Positions 498-31,595 of a DNA stretch of 32,074 nt are shown piece after piece (the stretch's first letter is position 1; every line of letters begins with the position of its first letter). The translations under genes and the position numbers were made by a program. The notes under the pieces were generated by a model that was not told where the DNA came from, did not search any database, and saw only the letters and a list, made by a program, of their open reading frames with translations. The DNA comes from Micrococcales bacterium. GTDB taxonomy: Bacteria; Actinomycetota; Actinomycetes; Actinomycetales; WQXJ01. Where the stretch lies: positions 1-32,074 of the forward strand of contig WQYN01000007.1 of assembly GCA_009781225.1 (NCBI GenBank), read 5' to 3'.

Positions 498-859
498 GGC
501 ATGTCAACCTGAAGGACGAGGCTGGTGGGGCGACCGTCGAGGTGGCGGTCGCTCTGCCAGCCCTCGCCCTGCTGCTGTCAATCACGTTGGCGCTCGGCGG
601 TGTCCTCCTGGCGAGCCTGCGCTGCGCCGAAGGAGCGAGGGCGGGAGCTCGGGAGGCGGCGCTGGGATCGGACGACGCCGCCGTGTCCCGAGCGGTCGCC
701 GCAGCTGCCGGGAATGAGGCGAGTGCCGCCATCGTCCGCCTGGGCGGCGAGGTCATGGTCACGGTGACGCTTCCACTCGCCCTGCCGTCTGTTGTGGGCG
801 ATCGCGTGGTGACCTCCACCGCCCACAGTGCTTGTGAGCCCGACCGTGGCTGCCGGTAG
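494..859 (+). CDS. TadE-like pseudopilin
   Basis: A 121-residue protein starting at a GTG that overlaps the DUF4244 stop. Residues about 8-40 carry the TadE pattern: GGATVEVAVALPALALLL, with the conserved Glu in the hydrophobic stretch, then one transmembrane helix. A short extracytoplasmic domain with two cysteines follows near the C-terminus (SACEPDRGCR). TadE proteins are minor pseudopilins of the tight-adherence secretion system, anchored in the membrane with the C-terminal part outside. The last 43 bp (817-859) are repeated at 910-952, so this gene's tail was involved in a local duplication. The next gene is read in another frame across this tail. Confidence 0.85.
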   Translation: MRHVNLKDEAGGATVEVAVALPALALLLSITLALGGVLLASLRCAEGARAGAREAALGSDDAAVSRAVAAAAGNEASAAIVRLGGEVMVTVTLPLALPSVVGDRVVTSTAHSACEPDRGCR

Positions 860-952
860 GGATGCGGCCACGGTGACCTCGTCTCGAATATCACTGATCG
901 CGGCACGTTCACCGCCCACAGTGCTTGCGAGCCCGACCGTGGCTGCCGGTAG
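817..952 (+). repeat. 43-bp direct repeat, 93-bp period
   Basis: Bases 817-859 and 910-952 are identical except at one position (834 T, 927 C). The first copy contains the TadE stop codon. The 93-bp offset is 31 codons, so both overlapping reading frames are preserved. In the downstream gene the repeat encodes SPTVAAG twice. Confidence 0.95.
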
Positions 953-1634
953 TGAACCGACCGCTGCGCAGGGACGACTCCTTCGCGGCGAGGGCGGATC
1001 GGGGAGCGTGCTCATGCTGGGGATCGCGACCGCAGCGTGCTTGGCTGCACTGGCGCTCTCGGCTGTGGGGGCTGCTCTGTTTGCTCACGCTCGGGCCCAG
1101 GCTGCTGCCGACCTCGGTGCGCTCGCGGCTGCCCAGGCGCTCCTTGAGGGGCAAGGTTCCGAAGCAGCGTGCGCTGCCGCGGGCCGGATCGTCGAGGAGA
1201 ACGGGGCGGTTCTGGTTCACTGCGACCCGCGCGACGACCTCTCGGTCCAGGTCACCGCCACTGTTGCGGTCAACTCCGAAGGCTGGGACTGGTTCGCATC
1301 CCTGGTGGGTCAGGCTTCCGCCCGTGCGGGCCCCCCAACAGCTCACCCCAGCCCGCGGGTGAGTGGAAACCCAACAATGAGCAACCAACAAGTGGAAACC
1401 CAACAACTAGGCGGCATGACAGCGATTCAAGTTGTCGGGTTTCCACTCACTCGCTGGCGGGGGGCGCGGAGCGCGCGGGGAGCGCGAGGGAGGTTGCTAG
1501 GACCGTGGCGAGGCGGGATGCGGCGGCTTTGTCGAGCGTTTGGTTGGCGTTGCCGCACTTGGGGGACTGGATGCAGCCTGGGCATCCCTCGGCGCAGGGA
1601 CAGGTTGCTAGCAGTTCGGCGACCGTCGCTATGA
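828..1634 (+). CDS. TadE-like protein of the helicase/secretion neighbourhood, 3' end altered
   Basis: The N-terminal half is convincing. GSGSVLMLGIATAACLAALA plus AAADLGALAAAQALL is the Rv3654c/TadE-like protein always met next to this helicase family; it is a single-pass membrane protein, probably of the same pilus-like apparatus. The GTG at 828 gives 268 residues. The GTG at 939 is an equally good start, because the 93-bp duplication (817-859 and 910-952) lengthened the 5' end in frame. Family homology seems to end near position 1345 (after GQASARAGPPT). Beyond that the frame runs through the palindrome at 1391-1447 and about 190 bp antisense to the helicase gene. The last roughly 95 residues are probably read-through after loss of the original stop. 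Confidence 0.7.
   Translation: MLVSPTVAAGRDAATVTSSRISLIAARSPPTVLASPTVAAGSEPTAAQGRLLRGEGGSGSVLMLGIATAACLAALALSAVGAALFAHARAQAAADLGALAAAQALLEGQGSEAACAAAGRIVEENGAVLVHCDPRDDLSVQVTATVAVNSEGWDWFASLVGQASARAGPPTAHPSPRVSGNPTMSNQQVETQQLGGMTAIQVVGFPLTRWRGARSARGARGRLLGPWRGGMRRLCRAFGWRCRTWGTGCSLGIPRRRDRLLAVRRPSL
1362..1447. repeat. Palindromic repeat B (GATGACAGCG-loop family)
   Basis: Arms 1391-1408 and 1430-1447 pair over 18 bp with one mismatch. The 21-base spacer contains ATGACAGCG. An extra copy of the left arm lies at 1362-1377, 29 bp upstream. The element and its right flank (CTCGCTGGCGG) closely match element E inside hrpA at 29167-29221, in the same orientation. It sits where a tad-cluster gene and the helicase converge. 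The helicase TGA (1447-1449) lies on its outer edge, so it may end transcription from either side, although no T-run follows. Confidence 0.9.
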
Positions 1635-3963
1635 GCTGGTCTCGGCGGCGAAAGGCCTGTTCAGCGAAGCCTGCTCCTCCAGGGAAGGCGTCATGGATGA
1701 AGACGGTTGGCGCGCTGGTCTCTGCGTGAAGAGCGGTCGACAGCCCCCCGAGGTCCCACCGGTCGCAGGTGGCCAAGAGGGGCAGCAGCCCGATCGCCGC
1801 GTGCTCCCAGGCGTGGAGGGCGCCGGGGAGGTCGGAGCGGTCGATCTCGGCCTTCTCGAGCGTCGCGGCGGTGAGAGTCAGCCAGGCTGAGGCGGTCCGC
1901 AGGACACGTTCGGGCAGGTCAAGGGGGATGGTATCGATCCGGCTGAGGCCCGGCACGGCGAGCCGAGTGTAGGACGTCACCTGCTCGACGACCTCGACCT
2001 CGCCGAACGCCCACGCTCCATCCGCCTCGACCACGCTCTGCTCCTCGGAGAGAATGCTCACCCTCGTGATCGAGTTCGCGCGAGTCCGGTAGTTGGGTCG
2101 CAGGGCGCGGACCAGGGCAATGCGCGCCTCCAGATCCAGATCGCGGACGATGAAGGTCGCTCCCTGATGCGAATAGACCGCACCGGGGTGGACGGTTGCG
2201 TCGGCGCGCCCACCATCCACCGTTCCCACCAGGTCACCCGTGGACTCGTTGACAATCTGAACCGACGGACCGCCGCTCCCCCGCAAATCCGTGAGCGACG
2301 TCGCTGGTTCGACGGGGATCCAATGCCAGCCCGTGGATCGACGCCGCAACACTCCGAGGTCGCCCAGTTGCTCTAGGACTGGCGAGGCGTCGGGCCCAAA
2401 GCGAGGGACGTCATCGTCCGTCAGGGGGAGCTCGGCGGCAGCGGCGCACAGGTGAGGGGCCAGGACGTGGGGATTGGACGGGTTGAAGACGCTGGTCTCC
2501 ATGGGCGCGCCGAAGATGGCCTCGGGGTGGTTGACGAGGAAGGTGTCGAGCGGGTTAGTGCCGGCGATCCACACGGCCAGGCCCTCGGCGCCGGCGCGGC
2601 CCGCCCGGCCAAACTGCTGCCACAGCGAGGCGCGGGTCCCCGGCCAGCCGACGCTCACCACGGTGTCGAGCCCCGAGATGTCGATTCCCAACTCCAGAGC
2701 TGAGGTCGTCACGACCGTGGTGAGCGAGCCGGAGCGTAGGCGTTTTTCCAGGTCACGCCGCTCGATGGCGAGGTACCCGCCGCGGTAGGCCGCAACACGC
2801 CCACCCTGGGAAGGGGGGAGTCGGTGCCGGACACCGTCGGCTACGGACTCGGCCGCGAACCGCGAGCGCACAAAGCCCAAGGTGCGAGCCCCGGCCCCGG
2901 CGAGGTCAGCGAGCAGCTCCGCCGCCTCGGCACCAGCGGGTTTGCGGATCGTCGGGATTGCGAGGAGGTCGTCGTCCTGCTCGGCTGGCGAGCCCTTCCC
3001 GCCGTCTTCGGCTGTGTCCTCACCTCCGCCAGCGCCGTCGGCGCTGCCACCCGGCCCCGCAGCAATGGCCCAGGGGTCCTCGGGACCAGCCCCCTGCTGA
3101 TCATCGTCATCCTCCGCGAGCTCCGGCGGCTGCCAGAGGATGATGGTGCGGCGGCCGCTCGGGGCCGTCGATTCTTCGATGGGCGTGATCTCCTGCTCTC
3201 CCACGCCGAACAACGTGGCCGCGAGGCGACCGGGCTCCGCGATCGTTGCCGAGGCGGCGGCGAAGGTGGGCTCGGCCCCGTGGTGAGCCGCGATCCGACG
3301 CAGCCTTCGGATCACCAGCGACACATGAGCGCCGAAAACCCCCCGGTGAGCATGGGCTTCATCGACGATGACGGTTCGCAACGTTCGGAAGAACCTTGCC
3401 CAGCGTTCATGCTGAGGGAGCAGGGAGAAGTGGAGGAAGTCGGGGTTGGTGAGGATGATGTCGCCGTGTGCCTGGGCTTCGGCCCGCTCGTCGGTCGAGG
3501 AATCGCCGTCGCAGACGCGGGCCCGGACGTCGGTCTCAGCGTCGCAGGAGCGAAGGACCTTGTTGAGCGCCACGAGCTGGTCGGCCGCTAAGGCTTTTGT
3601 CGGGGCCAAGTACAGGGCGGTGGGCCGTCGCGCGAAGGCGGAGATCCGCTTCGCGTCCGCGGCGCGCGCCTGCCGCAGGATCGCATCGAGGGCGTCGAGC
3701 CACATGGCCAGGGACTTTCCCGACCCGGCGGGTGTGGCGAGGACCACGTGATTGCCGTCGTGGAGGGCTTGGGCCGCTTCGACCTGATGCTGCCAGGGCT
3801 GGTCAACGCCCATTTTTCCCAGGCCGTCGGCGAGCGAGGGCTCCAACCAGGCCGGCCAGGGGACAGTGAGCCCGTCTCGCGCCTCGATGCGTTCAATGTG
3901 CCGGGCGCACTCCTGTCGAGTCGGGCCTCCCAGGAGGACCCGCACCAACGCCTGCGCACTCAC
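1447..3963 (-). CDS. DEAH-type superfamily 2 helicase with C-terminal Cys cluster (YprA/MrfA-like)
   Basis: An 838-residue helicase. Walker A is TPAGSGKS near residues 77-84, motif II is VIVDEAH near 200 and motif III is SAT. Motifs V and VI are LELGIDISGLD and QFGRAGRAG. The C-terminal DUF1998-type zinc site reads CPCAEGCPGCIQSPKCGNAN. This architecture is that of YprA/MrfA helicases; Bacillus MrfA works in excision of mitomycin-type damage. The pairing with DUF4244/TadE genes is the known actinobacterial helicase/secretion neighbourhood, and no functional link between the two is established. An acidic, Gly-rich linker near residues 285-330 (AEDDDDQQ and following) separates the two RecA lobes. 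The start is a GTG at 3963 with a weak ribosome site; GACAAT lies 7 bases upstream and could be a leaderless -10. The C-terminal codons and stop overlap palindrome B. Confidence 0.9.
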   Translation of the reverse strand: MSAQALVRVLLGGPTRQECARHIERIEARDGLTVPWPAWLEPSLADGLGKMGVDQPWQHQVEAAQALHDGNHVVLATPAGSGKSLAMWLDALDAILRQARAADAKRISAFARRPTALYLAPTKALAADQLVALNKVLRSCDAETDVRARVCDGDSSTDERAEAQAHGDIILTNPDFLHFSLLPQHERWARFFRTLRTVIVDEAHAHRGVFGAHVSLVIRRLRRIAAHHGAEPTFAAASATIAEPGRLAATLFGVGEQEITPIEESTAPSGRRTIILWQPPELAEDDDDQQGAGPEDPWAIAAGPGGSADGAGGGEDTAEDGGKGSPAEQDDDLLAIPTIRKPAGAEAAELLADLAGAGARTLGFVRSRFAAESVADGVRHRLPPSQGGRVAAYRGGYLAIERRDLEKRLRSGSLTTVVTTSALELGIDISGLDTVVSVGWPGTRASLWQQFGRAGRAGAEGLAVWIAGTNPLDTFLVNHPEAIFGAPMETSVFNPSNPHVLAPHLCAAAAELPLTDDDVPRFGPDASPVLEQLGDLGVLRRRSTGWHWIPVEPATSLTDLRGSGGPSVQIVNESTGDLVGTVDGGRADATVHPGAVYSHQGATFIVRDLDLEARIALVRALRPNYRTRANSITRVSILSEEQSVVEADGAWAFGEVEVVEQVTSYTRLAVPGLSRIDTIPLDLPERVLRTASAWLTLTAATLEKAEIDRSDLPGALHAWEHAAIGLLPLLATCDRWDLGGLSTALHAETSAPTVFIHDAFPGGAGFAEQAFRRRDQLIATVAELLATCPCAEGCPGCIQSPKCGNANQTLDKAAASRLATVLATSLALPARSAPPASE

Positions 3964-4016: not shown

Positions 4017-4760
4017 ATGCGGACAGCCGTCATTACCGGTGCCAGCAGCGGAATCGGGGCAGCCAGCGCGGTCGCCCTGGCTCAGGACGGATGGGCGGTG
4101 GTCCTAGGAGCTCGACGGATGGACCGCTTGGGCGAGGTGGCGAAGCGATGCGGGAGTTCCGCCATCGTGCGCCCTTTGGATGTGACGAACCAGGAAAGCG
4201 TAGATGCGTTTGCTGGGGTGATCGAGCGGTGTGACCTGCTGTTGAACAACGCGGGGGGCGCGAAGGGGCTGGGGCCGGTCGCCGAGGCGCGCGAGGAGCA
4301 GTGGGAGTGGATGTACCAGACGAACGTGCTGGGGACCATGCGCGTGACGCGCGCCCTGCTGCCCAAGCTTCTGGCCAGCGGCGATGGGCAGATTCTCACG
4401 ATCGCGTCGATCGCGGCGTCGGATGCCTACGCGGGAGGCGGGGGGTACAACGCGGCGAAGTTTGCCCAGGGGGCGGTGGTCCAGGTGCTGCGGCGCGAGC
4501 TGGCGGGGCTGCCGGTGCGGGTCGTCGAGATTGACCCAGGGCTGGTCAAGACGGAGTTTGCCCTGGTGCGATTTGCGGGCGATGCCGAGCGCGCGGAGGC
4601 TGTCTACGAGGGGATCACGCCCCTGACGGCCGAGGACATCGGGGAGGCTGTCCGCTGGATTGCCGCCCTGCCACCGCGCGTCAACATTGACCTCCTGCGG
4701 ATCACCGCCCGCGACCAAGTGGGCCCAACCAAAGTGATGCCGCGCCCCCTCACCGATTAG
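4017..4760 (+). CDS. Short-chain dehydrogenase/reductase
   Basis: A 247-residue classical SDR. It has TGASSGIG at residues 6-13 for NAD(P) binding, NNAGG as the adenine-side motif, Ser131 and Y144-NAA-K148 as the catalytic set, and the PG motif (IDPGLVKTEF) after strand 6. ARR after the second strand suggests NADP(H) preference. The closest general group is YdfG-like 3-hydroxy acid/serine dehydrogenases; the substrate cannot be read from sequence. The ATG at 4017 is chosen because AAGGAG lies 6 bases upstream. It is divergent from the helicase with about 53 bp between starts. Confidence 0.9.
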   Translation: MRTAVITGASSGIGAASAVALAQDGWAVVLGARRMDRLGEVAKRCGSSAIVRPLDVTNQESVDAFAGVIERCDLLLNNAGGAKGLGPVAEAREEQWEWMYQTNVLGTMRVTRALLPKLLASGDGQILTIASIAASDAYAGGGGYNAAKFAQGAVVQVLRRELAGLPVRVVEIDPGLVKTEFALVRFAGDAERAEAVYEGITPLTAEDIGEAVRWIAALPPRVNIDLLRITARDQVGPTKVMPRPLTD

Positions 4761-4782
4761 GTCAAAACCTGCCCTCAAACGG

Positions 4783-4809
4783 AGCTGACAACGCTCCCAA
4801 GGGTCAGCT
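4783..4809 (+). terminator. Possible terminator hairpin after the dehydrogenase
   Basis: AGCTGAC (4783-4789) pairs with GTCAGCT (4803-4809) around a 13-base loop, 23 bp after the dehydrogenase stop, followed only by TT. It is too weak for a confident rho-independent terminator. The rest of the gap to topA holds a G-run/C-run hairpin near 4827-4846 and nothing else I recognise. Confidence 0.35.
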
Positions 4810-4907
4810 TTCGACATACTCGGCGCGGGGGGACTCGCACCCCCTCGTCGCTGCAGCATCCCGCGGGAGTATGTATGGTTCACCCTGGAACCCATCAAGG
4901 AGGACTA

Positions 4908-14420: not shown

Positions 14421-14488
14421 CGAGTGCGAGGAATCCGACAATCCAGGGGGGATGACAGCGCTCTAGATTGTCGGATTCCTCGCACTCG
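14421..14488. repeat. Palindromic repeat C (GATGACAGCG-loop family)
   Basis: Perfect 22-bp arms at 14421-14442 and 14467-14488 (one more base pair inward). The 24-base spacer contains GATGACAGCG. Its stem is the same as that of element D and differs from B and E, sharing only a CCGACAA core with E. It lies in the 181-bp gap between the dehydrogenase pair and tmk, 46 bp before the tmk -10. It could act as a transcription stop, though no T-run follows. Confidence 0.95.
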
Positions 14489-15831: not shown

Positions 15832-18090
15832 ATGAACGCAAAGACTGCTCGTGTCCTGTTCTCTTCTCTTCTTGTTGTCGCGCTGGGTGTGGTGTGCGCA
15901 CCGACGCTGGGGGCTGCTCCGGGTGTGTCACCGGGGTCGGGCACCCGTGAGGGGGGAACGCGGGTCAGTGGGATGATTCCCTCCCAGTTCGTTACGGTCG
16001 CCGGGAGCAGAGAGGTGGCGTACGCGCTCGATGACGAGGGCGCTGTTTGGGCGTGGGGAGACAACAACTCGGGTCGACTGGGAAACGGCACCACAAATCA
16101 CTCGACGAGGCCGACTCGGGTGAAGCCGTCCACGGGGACGCTTCCGGTGTTCACAGCAATCGCGGGGGGGAACCGCACCGGCTACGCGCTCGATGAGGAC
16201 GGCGGCGTCTGGGCTTGGGGCAACAACAGCGACGGCAAGCTGGGGAACGGTACCACAGACGAGGCGTGGAATCCGGTTCAGGTGAAGGCCGCCTCGGGGG
16301 ACCTCCCAGTGTTCACCGCAATCGCCGCCAGGTACAACACGGCATACGCCTTGGACAAGTGGGGCGAGATCTGGGCCTGGGGATACAACGGCCACGGTGA
16401 GTTGGGCAACGGCGGCACCGCGGGCCAAAAGAATCCGGTTCAGGTGACGGCCGACTCTGGGAGCCTCCCAGTGTTCACCGCGATCGCCGCAGGGAGATAC
16501 GCGGGGTACGCGTTGGACAAGTGGGGCGAGGTCTGGGCCTGGGGATACAACATGGACGGCCAGTTGGGCGACGGGACCACCTCGGACTCGTTGAATCCGG
16601 TTCAGGTGAAGGCCGCTGTCGGAGTACTGCCGGTGATCACCGCAATCGCCGCAGGAAACCACACAGGTTACGCGCTGGACAAGGACGGCGGGGTCTGGGC
16701 CTGGGGATACAACGGCAATGGCGAGTTGGGCAACGGCGGCACCACGAACTCGCTGGGAGCGGTTCGCGTTCAACCCGCGTCTGGGCCGCTCAGAGAGATG
16801 ACCGCGATCACCGCAGGCTCGTCCACGGGGTACGCGTTGGACAAAGACGGCGGCGTGTGGGCTTGGGGAGACAACACCTCGGGCCAGTTGGGAATCTACT
16901 CCTCGAGTCCCTGGATGCTGAGTGCCTTCAAGGTGAGGACCGCCTCCGGGGCACTGCCGGCAATCGCCGCGATCGGCGCCGGAGAGAACACAGGGTACGC
17001 GTTGGACAGGGACGGCGCCCTGTGGGCGTGGGGGGGTGGCGCCACTGGCCAGTTCGGAAACGGCGAATACTACCCTTCGGAAACTGCAGTCCAGGTGTCG
17101 GCGACCCTCGGGAAGGTGACTTTCGGAGGGGTTGAAGGGGAAAGCCCAGCCATCACAGGCAGGCAATGGTCAGCGACCACTCCGACAGGGTGCGGCCGAG
17201 TTCCGGTCGTGGTGACCTACGGTCTGGGCGAAGTGGCGGATCGGACTGCGACCGTGGGCACCTTTGACTTCGGGAAGCCGCCTTCGGTGACGGCTCAGCC
17301 TGGGTCAGGCAGGGTGGTCGCTGGTGGGACGTTCACGGCCACGGTGGGGGTGTCGGGAGATCCGGTGCCGGCGGTTCGCTGGCAGTCGCGGATCGGGGTT
17401 GGCGCGTGGGCGGATATTCCCGGAGTCACCGGCTTGACGTTGACGGCCCGGCCGACTGTTTCTACTGAATACCGCGCCGTGGCGACCAACTGCTGGTCGG
17501 AAGCCAATGCGTCGGCTTTTACCGCCTACTCAGCCACGGCCTCAGCGACCGTCGCCCCACCCAACCCGTTGCCTCCCCCCGACGCTCCGAAAGCCGCAGC
17601 GGTGGCGATGGCAATGAAGCAGGTGACGATGACGACCAAGACAAGTCTGAAGGTGGTCTCCCTGGTCTACCCGGTGGGTGTGAAGGCCAAGGTCTCGTGG
17701 ACCTCAAGCAAACCGAAGGTCGCCAAGGTCAACTCCTCGGGGAAGATCCAGGCCCTGAAACCTGGCCGCGCGGTGATCACGGCCAAGACCGAGAACGGCA
17801 AAACAGCCCGGTTGAAGGTGACCGTGGTAGCCAAGGCCGTCAAGGTAAAGGCGATCAAGGCCGCCAAGACCAGCACGATCAAGGTCAAGAAGGGCAAGTC
17901 GACCCGGCTGTCTGTCCAGCTGACCCCTGCAGGCAGCACCTTGACAAAGATGCCGACCTTCCTGTCCTCGAAACCCAAGGTCGCCTCTATCGATAAGACC
18001 GGCCTAATCACCGCCAAAGCCAAGGGCAAGACAACGATCACCGTCCGGCAAGCCGGCAAGAAGACCACCCTCCTCATCAACGTCACCTAG
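15832..18090 (+). CDS. Secreted RCC1-repeat protein with bacterial Ig-like domains
   Basis: A 752-residue exported protein. Residues 1-30 are a signal peptide (NAKTARVLFSSLLVVALGVV, then an Ala-rich cleavage region). Seven RCC1-type repeats of about 54 residues follow (roughly 45-425), each built on GYALDKDGGVWAWGYN, QLGNGTT, PVQV. These should close into a seven-bladed propeller. Next comes an Ig-like domain (about 475-575, GDPVPAVRWQ), then two Big_2-type domains (SSKPKVAKVNSSGKIQALKPG and SSKPKVASIDKTGLITAKAKG) with a very Lys-rich surface. There is no LPXTG anchor or transmembrane tail, so it is released or held by charge. It is a probable surface or adhesion protein; the ligand is unknown. 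Repeats are similar enough at DNA level to recombine. Confidence 0.9.
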   Translation: MNAKTARVLFSSLLVVALGVVCAPTLGAAPGVSPGSGTREGGTRVSGMIPSQFVTVAGSREVAYALDDEGAVWAWGDNNSGRLGNGTTNHSTRPTRVKPSTGTLPVFTAIAGGNRTGYALDEDGGVWAWGNNSDGKLGNGTTDEAWNPVQVKAASGDLPVFTAIAARYNTAYALDKWGEIWAWGYNGHGELGNGGTAGQKNPVQVTADSGSLPVFTAIAAGRYAGYALDKWGEVWAWGYNMDGQLGDGTTSDSLNPVQVKAAVGVLPVITAIAAGNHTGYALDKDGGVWAWGYNGNGELGNGGTTNSLGAVRVQPASGPLREMTAITAGSSTGYALDKDGGVWAWGDNTSGQLGIYSSSPWMLSAFKVRTASGALPAIAAIGAGENTGYALDRDGALWAWGGGATGQFGNGEYYPSETAVQVSATLGKVTFGGVEGESPAITGRQWSATTPTGCGRVPVVVTYGLGEVADRTATVGTFDFGKPPSVTAQPGSGRVVAGGTFTATVGVSGDPVPAVRWQSRIGVGAWADIPGVTGLTLTARPTVSTEYRAVATNCWSEANASAFTAYSATASATVAPPNPLPPPDAPKAAAVAMAMKQVTMTTKTSLKVVSLVYPVGVKAKVSWTSSKPKVAKVNSSGKIQALKPGRAVITAKTENGKTARLKVTVVAKAVKVKAIKAAKTSTIKVKKGKSTRLSVQLTPAGSTLTKMPTFLSSKPKVASIDKTGLITAKAKGKTTITVRQAGKKTTLLINVT

Positions 18091-18102: not shown

Positions 18103-18170
18103 CGAGTGCGAGGAATCCGACAATTGGGAACGCTGTCGCTGGCCCTGAATTGTCGGATTCCTCGCACTCG
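18103..18170. repeat. Palindromic repeat D (GATGACAGCG-loop family, inverted)
   Basis: Perfect 23-bp arms at 18103-18125 and 18148-18170 with a 22-base spacer. The spacer read on the minus strand contains GCGACAGCG, so the element is inverted relative to B, C and E. Stem and left flank (GCCGAGTGCGAGG) match element C. It begins 12 bp after the RCC1 gene stop. On the other side it abuts the truncated RES toxin reading frame after its NPP residues. Confidence 0.95.
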
Positions 18171-24798: not shown

Positions 24799-24805
24799 GC
24801 ACGCC

Positions 24806-24867
24806 GTGGGCGATCTGCCGCAGGGTTCGTGGGCGATCTGCCGCAGGGTTCGTGGGCGATCTGCCGC
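24806..24867. repeat. 23-bp tandem repeat, 2.7 copies
   Basis: Units at 24806-24828 and 24829-24851 are identical, with a partial third at 24852-24867 (starting GTGGGCGATCTGCCGC). They fill the gap between the ATPase promoter and the end of the Bax-inhibitor gene. Being at the -35 and upstream region of the ATPase, they could be iterated binding sites. Confidence 0.95.
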
Positions 24868-24874
24868 TGCGCAA

Positions 24875-25908: not shown

Positions 25909-27213
25909 AAGCAGGCCCCGCCAGAATCGAGCACGCCACCAGCAGACACACCTCTTCCGCGCTTCCTCCAGGAGTCCATCGAGCAGGCTCTGACGGACAC
26001 CCGCATCGCCATCATCGAAGGTGCCCGTCAAGTCGGCAAGTCAACCCTCGCCGCCATGATCGCCGCTCCCCGACACGGCCTCATAGCTAACCTCGACCGC
26101 GACCTCACCAGACGAGCCGCCCTCACCGATCCCACCACCTTCGTCCAGCAGAACCCGAACGGCCTACTGGTCATTGACGAGGTCCAGCGCACCCCTGACC
26201 TCATTTTCGCCCTCAAGGCCGCCGTCGATGAAGACCCACGTCCAGGACGGTTTCTCATCACCGGCAGCGCCGACCTCCTCTCCCTCAAAGGACTCGACTC
26301 TCTGGCCGGACGAGCCGAAACCTTCGCCCTCGAAGGCTTCTCCCAAGGAGAGCTTCGCCACCACAAAGAGCAGTTCATCGACCGCCTCCTCGCCGGTGAG
26401 CTTCACCTCACCCACAGCTCCACCCTGCGCCGCTCCGACTACCTTGACCTCGCCTGCGCCGGAGGCTTCCCGCAAGCACGAACAAGGACCCAGCAACGAC
26501 GCAACGACTGGAATCACGCCTACCTTCGACAGCTCACCAGAAGAGATGCCCCCGACCTCGCCGGACTCACCCGGCTCGCCGACCTACCCCGCCTCATCGC
26601 AAGAGTCGCCGCCACAGCGGGCACCCAGTTCGTCGCAACCGGAGTCGCCAAAGACCTTCAATGGCCCCGCACCACCCTTGCCCCCTACCTCGAACTCCTC
26701 AAGACACTGTTCGTCATTCGCGAGCTTCCCGGATGGTCATCCTCCCTGGTCAGCCGCACCACCACACACCCCAAACTCTACGTGGGAGACTCGGGCCTCG
26801 CCGCCAGCCTCCTGGGCGTCACCCCTAGCTCCCTGGCCCCCGACCACACCCACGCTAACCGCGCGGGCCCCATCCTAGAGACCTTCGCCCTGGCAGAAAT
26901 TGCCAAGCAAAGAAGCTGGTCAGAAGCCAAACCGGCCCTCTTCCACTTCCGCGACCAGGCGCAACGCGAAGTCGACATCGTCCTCGAGCAACAAGATGGC
27001 ACCATCGCGGCCATTGAGGTCAAGGCCGCCGCCACCATCACCCCCCACGACATGCGAGGCCTGGCCCGACTCCGCGACCAGGCCAAAGACCGCTTCGCCG
27101 CCGGCATCCTCCTGTACACCGGCCCCACCTCCGAGCCGCTCGGCCCGCGCCTGGCCGCCGTCCCACTCGATGCACTGTGGTCACCTCCGCGACGGGGCAC
27201 AATAGGCCGGTGA
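25882..27213 (+). CDS. AAA_14 ATPase with DUF4143 nuclease-like domain (copy 2)
   Basis: A 443-residue paralogue of the ATPase at 23527. Walker A is GARQVGKST (about 47-55) and Walker B is LLVIDEVQRTPDLIFALK. FLITGSADLL, YLRQLTRRD and LETFALAEIAKQ follow. The C-terminal EVDIVLEQQDGTIAAIEVKAA gives the D...E-x-K pattern. The start could also be the ATG at 25873; 25882 is preferred because of TAGAAT-N7-ATG. Its stop overlaps the hrpA GTG (GTGA), so hrpA may be translated from its message. The two copies are diverged, so the duplication is old or they were acquired separately. Confidence 0.92.
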   Translation: MTVWNDEPTKQAPPESSTPPADTPLPRFLQESIEQALTDTRIAIIEGARQVGKSTLAAMIAAPRHGLIANLDRDLTRRAALTDPTTFVQQNPNGLLVIDEVQRTPDLIFALKAAVDEDPRPGRFLITGSADLLSLKGLDSLAGRAETFALEGFSQGELRHHKEQFIDRLLAGELHLTHSSTLRRSDYLDLACAGGFPQARTRTQQRRNDWNHAYLRQLTRRDAPDLAGLTRLADLPRLIARVAATAGTQFVATGVAKDLQWPRTTLAPYLELLKTLFVIRELPGWSSSLVSRTTTHPKLYVGDSGLAASLLGVTPSSLAPDHTHANRAGPILETFALAEIAKQRSWSEAKPALFHFRDQAQREVDIVLEQQDGTIAAIEVKAAATITPHDMRGLARLRDQAKDRFAAGILLYTGPTSEPLGPRLAAVPLDALWSPPRRGTIGR

Positions 27214-30200
27214 GTGATTTGGGGGCGAGGTCCGCCATCGTCCTTCCGCCGGTGCGGTATCCGCCGGAGCTGCCGGTCAGCGCGCGGCGCGAGGACATTG
27301 CCCGCGCGATCACGCACCACCAGGTCGTCATCGTCGCCGGGGAGACGGGGTCGGGCAAGACGACCCAGATTCCCAAGATTCTCCTGGAGCTGGGGCGCGG
27401 CCGGGCTGGGCGGATTGGGCACACGCAGCCCCGGCGCATTGCCGCGCGCACCGTCGCTGAGCGCATTGCTGAGGAGCTTGCGACACCGCTGGGCGACATC
27501 GTCGGTTATCAGGTGCGGTTCACCGACGAGACGTCGCCCTCCACTCTCGTCAAAGTGATGACCGACGGCATTCTTCTCGCAGAAATCCAGCATGACCCCA
27601 TGCTCTGGGCCTACGACGCCCTCATCATTGACGAGGCTCACGAGCGCTCGCTCAATATCGACTTCATCCTCGGCTACCTCACGACCCTCCTCCCGCGCCG
27701 CCCCGACCTCAAGATCGTCATCACCTCGGCGACCATCGATTCCGAGCTTTTTGCCCAGCATTTTGCGCACGATGGCGAACCCGCCCCGGTCATCGAAGTC
27801 ACCGGCCGCACCTATCCCGTGGAGATCCGCTACTGTCCCCTCGATTCGGACGATGGCGGACCTTCCCCCAGCACATCGAGTCGCCCTCGCGCTGGGGCTG
27901 ACCAGGCGCTCGACCAGCCGGCGGCGATCTGTCAGGCAGCACGGGAGCTGTTCAAGGAGGGATCCGGCGACATTCTCGTCTTCTGCTCCGGCGAAAGGGA
28001 AATCCGCGACGCCGCCGAGGCGCTGGTCGAGGAGTTCAACGCGACACTGGTCGGAGGAAAGAAAGCCGGTGGACCAGCGGGCGACAAAGCAAACCGCTCC
28101 AAGACAACAGCGCGCGGCGGCGCGGAACGCAACACCCCCCGAGACCTAGAAATCCTCCCCCTCTTCGCACGCCTTTCCGCTGCGGAACAGCACAGAGTCT
28201 TCGAGCCGCACGCGGCGCGGCGGATTGTCCTGGCGACGAACGTTGCGGAAACCTCCCTGACGGTCCCGGGAATCCGCTACGTAATCGACCCCGGGACAGC
28301 CCGCATCTCGCGTTACTCCAAAGCGACCAAGGTCCAGCGTCTCCCCATTGAACCCATCTCCCAGGCCAGCGCCAACCAGCGAGCCGGCCGGTGCGGCCGC
28401 CTCGCCGACGGCATCTGCATCCGCCTCTACTCGAAAGACGACTTCGATGCACGCCCCGAGTTCACCGAACCGGAAATCCTGAGAACCTCGCTCGCCTCGG
28501 TCATCCTCCAGATGATCGCCGTCGGGGTCGCATCCTCGCCGAACGACGTCGTCAAGTTCCCCTTCGTCCAGCGCCCCGATGCCCGCAACGTCCGCGACGG
28601 GGTCGCCCTTCTCACCGAACTCGGCGCCCTCGCCGACAAGTCAACCAAGAGCCCCGAATCGAAAACCGCCGCCCCAAGAACAACCCCCAAAGGAAACCAG
28701 CAAAAACCCAGCTCAGCCCGCCGACCCCAGCAGGGAATCGGCCTCACGCCCCTCGGCCGTCAGCTCGCCCATATCCCCCTCGATCCTCGTCTGGGCCGCA
28801 TGATCATCGAGGCTGACCGCTACGGCGTGACCCGCGAGGTACTCATCATCGCCGCCGCCCTGACCATTCAGGATCCCCGCGAGCGCCCTCTCGATGCCCA
28901 AGAAGCAGCTGATGCCGCCCACGCCCGCTTCGCCGACCCCACCTCAGACTTCCTGACCTTCCTCAACCTCTGGGAGTACCTGCGCGCCGCCCGCAAGGAC
29001 CTGTCTTCCTCGGCCTTCCGCCGCATGGCGCGCGCAGAATTCCTCAACTACCTGCGGCTTCGAGAGTGGCAAGACCTCGTCACGCAGCTGAGGCGCATCG
29101 TGAGGGAATCGGACGCCCACAATCCACCTCTCCGCGCCCGTCGGGCGCGACCAAAGCCGCGAAAAAGTGAAAACCCGACAACTAGCAGCGATGACAGCGT
29201 TCTTAGTTGTCAGGTTTTCACAGGCTCGCTGGCGGAGGGGGTGCCCACGCGCTTTTCCTGGCCGGCGGAGCAGATCCATCGCGCCCTGCTGCCCGGGCTG
29301 CTCTCTCAGCTCGGGATGCGGCTGGAAACCGACCTTGACCAGGCGCGGGCCTCCACCGATCGTAGGTCCCGCCGCCGCTCGCGCAACGAATACGCTGGTC
29401 CGCGCAACGCCCGCTTCGCGATCTTCCCGGGCTCCCCACTCTCCGCCAAGCCGCCTCCGTGGATCATGGCGGCCGAACTCGTCGAAACCTCGCGCCTGTG
29501 GGCCCGCTGCGTCGCCGCCATCACCCCCGAATGGGCAGAGGATGCGGCCTCCCACCTCGTCGTTCGCAGCTACTCATCCCCGCGCTGGTCCTCCCGCGCC
29601 GCTGCCGCCATGGTCGACGAGAAAGTCCTGCTCTTCGGCCTTCCCATCATCGCCGCGCGCCCGGTCCCGCTGGCCCGCACCGACCCCGAGCACGCCCGCG
29701 AGATCTTCATCCGCTCGGCCCTCGTCGAGGGAGACTGGCGCTGTCACCACGAGTTCTTCGCCCAGAACCAGCACCTCATCGAGGAGGTCGAGGACCTCGG
29801 CGACCGCACCCGCCGAACCAGCCGCGCCCTGACGCTCGACCCCGAGGACATCGTCGCCTTCTACGACGAGCGCCTCCCCGCGAGCGCCACCTCCGCCCGC
29901 GCCTTCGACGCCTGGTGGAAAAAGGTCCGCCCGCGCCACCCCGACCTCCTCACCCTCACCCCCGCCGACCTGGGCCTAGACGATGACGGCCCCGCCCGCG
30001 AGGGCTTCCCCGACCAGTGGGTCGCCGGCGACTTCCCTCTCCCCTTGACCTACACCTACGACCCCGGTGCGGACGATGACGGAGCGACCCTCCACATTCC
30101 CGTCGCCATCGCGAACCAAATCCGTCCCGACGGGTTTGACTGGCACATCCCCGGGTTGCGGACCGAACTGGTGACCGCGTTGATCAAGGGTCTGCCGAAG

Positions 30201-31595
30201 AAGGAGCGGGTCGAGCTGGTCCCGGCCGCTGACACCGCGCGGTCCCTGGCACCGCACCTTGCTGACCCGTCGGCGTGGCGCGATCGGGCGGGGCGGATTC
30301 GACCGTTCACGGAGGTGCTCAGCGAGGTCATTCGCGACAGCCGAGATCTGTGGGTGCCGCCCGAGGTCTGGACCTTCGAGAAAATACCCCCTCACCTGCG
30401 GCTCCGCTTCGTCATCGAGAACCCGCGGGGGGAGGTGATGGCCTCGGGAACCGACTTCCTCGCCGTCCGCGAGGAAGCAGCACCCGGTGTCCGCGAGGCG
30501 ATCGCAACCCTCGCTGAAGCAGCAGGCCGCGCCTCAGCCCGGGCGAGTTCCACCAAGTTTGCGGCGGCGGGAGTCGGCGCTTCGGACTCTGGGTCGGTCA
30601 ACGCTGTACCCGAATCCGTCGAACCAGCGGCTCCTGCGCCCGCGCCACGAACACCTCCCACTCCCGAACGCAAGCCAACCGCCCCACCCCCGACCCGTCC
30701 GGTACCGCCCCCCACCTGGGGCGGCGAGCGCGAGAGCCTCACCACCTGGGACTTTGGCGACCTCCCGCGGGAGGTGGAGGGGATGGCGGGGGACGTCATC
30801 GTGCGCGGGTATCCGGCGGTGGTGGTGGAGGGGCGACGAATCGCGCTGCGGGTGATGGAGAGTCGCGAGCGCCAGGGGGAGGCGATGGAGCGCGGGGTGC
30901 GGGCGCTGCTGTTGGGGGAGCTGAAGCTGGCGCCGGCGCGGATCACGTCGAGGCTGAAAGCGCAGGTGGCGCTGCCGTTGGCGACGAGCGCGTATCCGAA
31001 CAGTGACGCGCTCGTGCTGGACTGTCAGGCGGCGGCCGTAGATGCGCTGGTGAGGGCGCATGGCGGGGTGCCGTGGACACAGGGCGGATATGAGGCGCTG
31101 CGCGCCCGGCTGAGGGATGAGCACGAGGACCGGACGGACGCCATCGTGCGGCTGGTGTCGAAAGTGCTGGTCAAGGCGGGGGAGGTGCGGGGACGGATCG
31201 AGGATTTGGCGGGGCTGTCGATGCTCTCGTCGCTGACGGAGATCCGCTCGCACCTGGCCCGGCTCCTGGAGGCGGGATTTGTCGCGCGGGCCGGGGAGGC
31301 GCGGCTCGCCCACTTCCCGAGGTATCTCGCAGCCGACGCTTACCGTCTGGAGCGACTCGGCGCGACGCGCGCGCGCGAGGAGAGGGGAATCTGGGTATTG
31401 GCGCAGGTAGACGAGGCGTATCACGAGGCGTGCGCCGCGTTGCCTCCCGGCGCCCTCCCCCCCGAGGCGCTCGCCGAGGTCCCGTGGATGATCGAGGAAC
31501 TACGCGTCAGCCTCTTCGCCGAGCAGCTAGGAACCGCCCACCCCGTCTCCGAAAAGCGCATCCGCAAAGCAATCGCTACCGGGGTCGGGCGCTAG
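27210..31595 (+). CDS. hrpA: ATP-dependent RNA helicase HrpA
   Basis: A 1461-residue DEAH-box helicase. Walker A is GETGSGKTTQ near 44-52 and motif II is IIDEAHERSLNIDF near 140. SAT, LATNVAETSLT and QRAGRCGR are motifs III, V and VI. RH-winged-helix, OB and the long HrpA-specific C-terminal DUF3418 follow. In E. coli HrpA resolves stalled ribosomes. Compared with E. coli it carries several low-complexity inserts: after YCPLDSDDGG, near 280-300, near 475-500, near 650-680 and a Pro-rich one near 1150. The insert at 650-680 contains palindrome E. A GTG at 27210 overlapping the upstream stop is chosen; CACAAT lies 6 bases before it. Confidence 0.95.
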   Translation: MSDLGARSAIVLPPVRYPPELPVSARREDIARAITHHQVVIVAGETGSGKTTQIPKILLELGRGRAGRIGHTQPRRIAARTVAERIAEELATPLGDIVGYQVRFTDETSPSTLVKVMTDGILLAEIQHDPMLWAYDALIIDEAHERSLNIDFILGYLTTLLPRRPDLKIVITSATIDSELFAQHFAHDGEPAPVIEVTGRTYPVEIRYCPLDSDDGGPSPSTSSRPRAGADQALDQPAAICQAARELFKEGSGDILVFCSGEREIRDAAEALVEEFNATLVGGKKAGGPAGDKANRSKTTARGGAERNTPRDLEILPLFARLSAAEQHRVFEPHAARRIVLATNVAETSLTVPGIRYVIDPGTARISRYSKATKVQRLPIEPISQASANQRAGRCGRLADGICIRLYSKDDFDARPEFTEPEILRTSLASVILQMIAVGVASSPNDVVKFPFVQRPDARNVRDGVALLTELGALADKSTKSPESKTAAPRTTPKGNQQKPSSARRPQQGIGLTPLGRQLAHIPLDPRLGRMIIEADRYGVTREVLIIAAALTIQDPRERPLDAQEAADAAHARFADPTSDFLTFLNLWEYLRAARKDLSSSAFRRMARAEFLNYLRLREWQDLVTQLRRIVRESDAHNPPLRARRARPKPRKSENPTTSSDDSVLSCQVFTGSLAEGVPTRFSWPAEQIHRALLPGLLSQLGMRLETDLDQARASTDRRSRRRSRNEYAGPRNARFAIFPGSPLSAKPPPWIMAAELVETSRLWARCVAAITPEWAEDAASHLVVRSYSSPRWSSRAAAAMVDEKVLLFGLPIIAARPVPLARTDPEHAREIFIRSALVEGDWRCHHEFFAQNQHLIEEVEDLGDRTRRTSRALTLDPEDIVAFYDERLPASATSARAFDAWWKKVRPRHPDLLTLTPADLGLDDDGPAREGFPDQWVAGDFPLPLTYTYDPGADDDGATLHIPVAIANQIRPDGFDWHIPGLRTELVTALIKGLPKKERVELVPAADTARSLAPHLADPSAWRDRAGRIRPFTEVLSEVIRDSRDLWVPPEVWTFEKIPPHLRLRFVIENPRGEVMASGTDFLAVREEAAPGVREAIATLAEAAGRASARASSTKFAAAGVGASDSGSVNAVPESVEPAAPAPAPRTPPTPERKPTAPPPTRPVPPPTWGGERESLTTWDFGDLPREVEGMAGDVIVRGYPAVVVEGRRIALRVMESRERQGEAMERGVRALLLGELKLAPARITSRLKAQVALPLATSAYPNSDALVLDCQAAAVDALVRAHGGVPWTQGGYEALRARLRDEHEDRTDAIVRLVSKVLVKAGEVRGRIEDLAGLSMLSSLTEIRSHLARLLEAGFVARAGEARLAHFPRYLAADAYRLERLGATRAREERGIWVLAQVDEAYHEACAALPPGALPPEALAEVPWMIEELRVSLFAEQLGTAHPVSEKRIRKAIATGVGR
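29167..29221. repeat. Palindromic repeat E inside hrpA (GATGACAGCG-loop family)
   Basis: Arms 29167-29184 and 29204-29221 pair over 18 bp with one mismatch. The 19-base spacer contains CGATGACAGCG. The element plus its right flank CTCGCTGGCGG matches element B in the same orientation. It is read in frame as roughly SENPTTSSDDSVLSCQVFTG, between VRESDAHN and QIHRALLPGLLSQLG. Those two blocks are much closer together in E. coli HrpA. Confidence 0.95.

Follow-up and report, generated by a model that had tools for sequence, protein, structure and literature searches.

The convergent TadE-like and helicase genes

The window analyzed here is a whole contig (G000:C7, 32,074 nt) of a 2.56-Mb genome that is 93% complete and assembled in 254 contigs. 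Near its left end a TadE-like gene of the Rv3654c family converges with a DECH-box helicase gene, and a palindrome, element B, lies where the two genes meet (Table 1). We compared the locus with 17 relatives from the same family, the genus being represented by one genome, and with a wider set of 80 helicase loci in named genomes, 60 of which have a TadE-like match.

The window contains several repeats of other kinds. A direct duplication of 58 nt (812-962; copies 88% alike and 93 nt apart) runs from the last part of the upstream TadE gene into the beginning of the Rv3654c-type ORF, which thereby has two possible starts. A 23-nt unit occurs three times in tandem within a probable coding region (24805-24873), and at least six direct repeats with a spacing of about 162 nt (15949-17059; 61-73% alike) probably belong to a repeat protein.

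Table 1. Genes, stop codons and copies of the palindromic element in the window
Feature	Position	Strand	Basis
TadE-like gene (Rv3654c family), present frame	828-1634	+	TIGR03816, ORF
Possible GTG starts of the TadE-like gene	828 or 921	+	ORF
AGPP codons, native C-terminus of the family; relatives have their stop here	1326-1337	+	Orthologue comparison
Element B with degenerate outer stem	1346-1463		Inverted repeat, model match, fold
Second left-arm copy, with the same right arm as partner	1361-1377	+	Sequence, fold
Core of B, 69 nt, loop motif ATGACAGCG	1385-1453	+	Covariance model, alignment
DECH-box helicase gene	1447-3963	-	TIGR03817, residues 21-824 of 838
Helicase stop TGA in the right arm of B	1447-1449	-	Sequence, gene-end position, arm variants
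Part of the TadE-like frame antisense to the helicase gene	1447-1634	+	ORF, orthologues
CTCGCTGGCGG, element terminus common to B and E	1450-1460	+	Exact-match count
Copy at the SDR gene, supplying TAG	4754-4822	+	Model match
Intergenic copy, type 2 arms	14421-14488	+	Model match
Copy between convergent genes, an upstream stop 13 nt before the core	18103-18170	-	Model match
Element E, in frame within hrpA (27177-31595), 23 residues encoded	29160-29228	+	Model match, frame

Displacement of the TadE-like stop

The TIGR03816 profile is matched over its full length by residues 55-169 of the TadE-like protein, and the match ends at nt 1334, 12 nt short of B. The preliminary description, made from the sequence alone, had noted that family similarity ceases just before the element and that the frame continues across it for about 190 bp antisense to the helicase gene. 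Both observations hold: the frame first meets a stop with the TGA at 1632-1634, 188 nt within the helicase gene on the opposite strand. The protein reads ARAGPP, followed by 97 added residues encoded by B and the helicase antisense.

Readable C-termini in the convergent arrangement were available for 11 of the 17 relatives; the six unreadable ones were left out. Eight proteins end in AGPP, one in AGASP and one in AGRPP, i.e., the stop follows AGPP directly or one residue later in 10 of 11 cases, and in the remaining relative (G017, locus L042) the frame runs on. Stops are present in the relatives at a point where the window lacks one; thus, the outcome that would have refuted the earlier proposal, identical C-terminal residues and stops in element-free orthologues, was not observed. 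In the wider set, the orthologues beside the same helicase mostly end near ARAGP, and 47 of 60 end at most 12 residues from the end of the profile. These comparisons support the loss of a conserved stop position at B, and the family part of the protein is complete, with only its stop gone.

A stop can also disappear without the element. In G017 the stop after AGPP is lost and the frame is fused to an extra domain, which, judging by its motif, presumably resembles NlpC/P60. Tails of at least 45 residues are found in 9 of the 60 wider orthologues, and eight of these overlap the helicase gene; thus, run-on into the opposite gene is not special to the B element.

Structure of element B and the helicase stop

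The arms of B (1346-1377 and 1432-1463) span 32 nt each and are 88% complementary. The left arm is present twice, at 1361-1377 and 1391-1408. A covariance model (R1) trained on 28 further copies of the element detects B with E = 1.8e-14, and the RNA fold is much more stable than expected (z = -6.7; none of 200 shuffled sequences was equally stable). In most copies of the element the terminus is CTCG, with a degenerate GC-rich stem beyond it, and the exact ends of the element are not fixed. An extra upstream left arm was seen in two copies, in the window (1361-1377) and near 2340-2380 of L145; it looks like the result of one element inserting into, or slipping across, a second one.

The TGA of the helicase gene lies four bases inward from the edge of the core at 1453. 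The right arm of B reads CGAGTGAG on the helicase strand, and the other copies mostly have CGAGTGCG, CGAGTATG or CGAGCATG at this position, with CGAGTGA in 2 of 69. Because the TGA falls within the right arm of B, the helicase stop is element-borne, in line with its earlier placement in the outer part of the element. A sequence shared by B and E had been regarded as a flank. It is indeed common to both, since the window has exactly two occurrences of CTCGCTGGCGG (1450-1460 in B and 29225-29235 in E; 0.17 expected by shuffling), but it forms the element's own outer terminus and is not an independent flank.

Helicase tails in the relatives range from none to more than 60 residues beyond the conserved part; therefore, no lost native helicase end can be demonstrated. 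Of the earlier proposal that insertion removed one native stop and may have supplied the other, the loss of the TadE-like stop position and the location of the helicase TGA within the element are retained, but an old helicase stop is not locatable. The stronger wording, that both convergent genes had their 3' ends replaced by the palindrome, goes too far, as the TadE-like ending is complete and no native coding sequence can be shown to have been lost.

A dispersed element family with variable arms

At least 69 copies of the element were found in the same genome by blast followed by search with R1. Of 70 listed model matches, one false match that is not a palindrome (L145:4491) was dropped before all counts. 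A genome search yielded no copies in the 17 family relatives, and no comparable hairpin is present at any of their helicase loci. In the RNAalifold structure behind R1, some loop bases were paired to the right arm; the model was used only for searching, and stem pairs were counted separately.

The core measures 68-70 nt. Among 67 copies (the partial copy L151 and the diverged L128:3281 are left out), four main arm types, GTGGAAACCCGACAAC, GAGTGCGAGGAATCCGACAAT, GAGCATGTGGAAACCTGAGCATT and TTATGGCGAAACCTGACCT, are represented by 9, 30, 8 and 14 copies, respectively, and six copies have other arms. The loop motif G[AG]CA[AGC]CG is found on one strand in all 67 complete copies, with GACARCG in 59, a count that leans towards the motif, since the search model was trained on motif-bearing copies. 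CGYTGTC was found on the motif strand in none of the 67.

In an alignment of 33 cores of exactly 69 nt, 18 of 25 stem pairs carry two-sided changes, with a covariation score of 0.369 compared with 0.154 after shuffling and at most 0.072 with partners slid. Thus, the arms change in step. Selection on the hairpin may account for this, as may self-repair of palindromes, and the differences between arm types may go back to a small number of independent events. One arm type carries a C-C mismatch in 10 of its 13 copies of 69 nt.

Some neighboring copies (L121:937 and L121:2468; L128:541, 3281 and 6218) are nearly identical or have common flanks and lie a few kilobases apart, as if duplicated together with their surroundings. 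A second dispersed palindrome, apparently unrelated, is found at 45-109 of the window, with GGGAGTGGTTTCGTTGGATTTG arms and an AGGGGAC loop. It occurs at dozens of places in the same genome (101 matches over both strands), several of them in tandem.

No Rfam family reached its gathering score at the elements, only hairpin look-alikes falling below it. There were no matches to a two-type pattern in a genome contig collection, to the type 2 arm in a viral contig collection, or, by blastn, to the type 2 consensus among plasmids and phages, collections that may omit records of the genome itself. Searches of an open-licence library listed no paper whose title or opening abstract lines describe the family.

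Elements at other gene ends

According to a coding-score gene caller, seven genes end inside the element core and three frames run through one; the TadE-like gene was missed by the caller and added by hand for this count. The genes ending in an element encode the helicase, an SDR protein, TruB, an AlkZ-like protein, a DinB-type polymerase, a cytidylate-kinase-like protein and a short MFS-like protein. In the case of the SDR gene (4017-4760), the stop TAG at 4758-4760 is supplied by the copy listed in Table 1.

The run-through frames are those of the TadE-like gene, mnmA and hrpA. MnmA contains 24 element-encoded residues followed by 42 more. In relatives the protein ends shortly past the last conserved strand at 10 of 13 loci examined, three loci with unreadable ends being counted as misses, and mnmA is a second clear example of a stop displaced at the element. 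In hrpA, the residues added by element E fall within a linker that is highly variable among relatives. On average, about three of the six frames of an element are open, so in-frame fusions are easy.

The copies lie in 31 tandem, 13 divergent and 9 convergent gaps, at 13 contig edges and, in 3 cases, within a gene. These contexts follow the background, in which gaps of 60 nt or more number 90 tandem, 42 divergent and 22 convergent. Within tandem gaps, the element is closer to the upstream stop than to the next start in 25 of 31 cases, a bias towards 3' ends that may be inflated, because starts were picked by coding score and the choice is biased against starts within elements.

Origin of element B

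The most natural explanation, to which we assign a probability of about three in four, is that B belongs to a family of small dispersed palindromic elements and inserted at or just past the TadE-like stop, displacing this stop and supplying that of the helicase gene. It is based on the stop position conserved in relatives, the preserved AGPP and the helicase TGA in the arm; on at least 69 copies in this genome against none in 17 relatives; and on the loss of the MnmA stop, the other gene ends and run-throughs, the hrpA insert and the frequent open frames. A small palindromic element would have spread in this lineage, and a non-autonomous copy would have inserted at, or a few bases past, the TadE-like stop. 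The stop would thereby be displaced and the frame would read on through the element and into the GC-rich antisense of the helicase gene, gaining its 97 residues, while the helicase frame would enter the outer arm on the other strand and end at the TGA there. Both extended proteins are probably made.

The palindromes could instead be selected structures of 3' ends, such as bidirectional terminators or mRNA-stabilizing hairpins, the overlap with stops being a by-product of compact gene ends. The strong stem, the compensating changes in arm pairs and the position of copies in tandem gaps would suit such a role, which we nevertheless hold to be unlikely: terminators should avoid divergent gaps, but the contexts of the copies track the background; one copy lies within hrpA; and a T-tract terminator search over 1200-1700 called none at B. 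Doubtful, too, is a history that began with loss of the TadE-like stop, through a point mutation or a small deletion, after which B inserted into a gene end already running on or grew there through a local duplication. Stop loss is possible by itself, as follows from the element-free loss in G017 and the long tails of several wider orthologues, and the left arm of B is duplicated; however, the MnmA stop is lost exactly at another copy, and the coincidence would be needed twice. A misassembly at a repeat is very improbable. The genome is fragmented and at least one of its 254 contigs (C72) ends inside a copy, but B has a composite left arm of its own, and the convergent order of the TadE-like and helicase genes is kept in relatives, so the two sides of B belong together. 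We infer that B arrived by insertion; local duplication, or arrival after a mutation that had already removed the stop, seems less likely.

The element family presumably is, or was, moved by an enzyme. No target-site duplication was detected as a k-mer excess around 68 copies (offsets 0-25, k from 3 to 8), and the Y1 transposase domain PF01797 is absent from the genome at its 93% completeness. Inspection by eye of the called genes that separate closely spaced copies revealed no autonomous element. When ends shared with a full-length insertion sequence were sought by blast with three copies, almost only complete palindromes came back from this fragmented genome. Hairpin flanks that are C-rich and G-rich occur on both sides in 11 of 43 element-bearing gaps versus 7 of 80 element-free gaps, which is suggestive of insertion into pre-existing hairpins of this kind.

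At several genes of this genome, a short repeat has cleanly rewritten where the protein ends, and the old stop position is still visible in relatives. Annotated C-terminal tails in such genomes may derive from repeats. Arms that turn over in pairs around a constant loop motif turn recognition into a testable problem, in which a putative factor would read the loop as DNA or as RNA.

Comparison with known systems

Look-alike palindromes were found in 3 of 396 searched genomes (G176, G077 and G194; same order, other families), and the model matches in two further genomes (G089 and G119) looked like chance matches on inspection. The look-alikes have CGAG-N3-GYG-N-AAACC arms and CTCG ends, as in the B family; they differ in length (57-58 nt in pattern matches versus 69 nt), in the inner arms and in having no GACAGCG loop in the copies read. 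We consider it a rather speculative idea that the B family represents an undescribed class of actinobacterial hairpin elements recognized through a one-sided GACAGCG loop and CGAG/CTCG ends instead of the arms, of which at least four types would have drifted under a pairing constraint. Such a class would prefer gene 3' ends, supply stops to housekeeping genes and have distant relatives with other loops in other actinobacterial families.

REP/REPIN elements, which RAYT (Y1) transposases move, are likewise small extragenic palindromes in dozens of copies. REPs have a GTAG foot, not seen in the B family, in whose genome no Y1 transposase was found either; given the absence of PF01797 from the 93% complete genome, identity with RAYT-associated REPs was rejected. 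Identity with integron attC sites was set aside on the basis of box sequences that we assume to be characteristic of attC.

PMC10969869 and PMC2229807 describe Rickettsia palindromic elements (RPE) as short dispersed palindromes, with several families per genome, that occur in frame within conserved genes. The ERIC, YPAL/RU-2 and Correia elements are presented in PMC2229807 as small non-coding hairpin repeats with open frames fused to neighboring genes. With RPE the B family shares the dispersal of short palindromes through one genome, here in at least 69 copies, and in-frame insertion into conserved genes, here hrpA and the 3' end of mnmA, most copies lying outside genes. It differs in belonging to another phylum, in its length (about 69 nt versus about 150 bp) and in being mostly intergenic and located at 3' ends, with stops supplied by the element. 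Like MITEs of the ERIC, YPAL/RU-2 and Correia type, it is small and non-coding and has terminal inverted repeats; in contrast to them, no target-site duplication was found, and a constant loop motif is combined with arms that differ from copy to copy. Because neither the REP/RAYT enzyme nor the target duplication of MITEs was found, and RPE was compared by description, the B family is classed with the small dispersed palindromic repeats and is not assigned to any named family. By analogy, and with no claim of kinship, the way in which it would work resembles that of RPE and the small MITEs.
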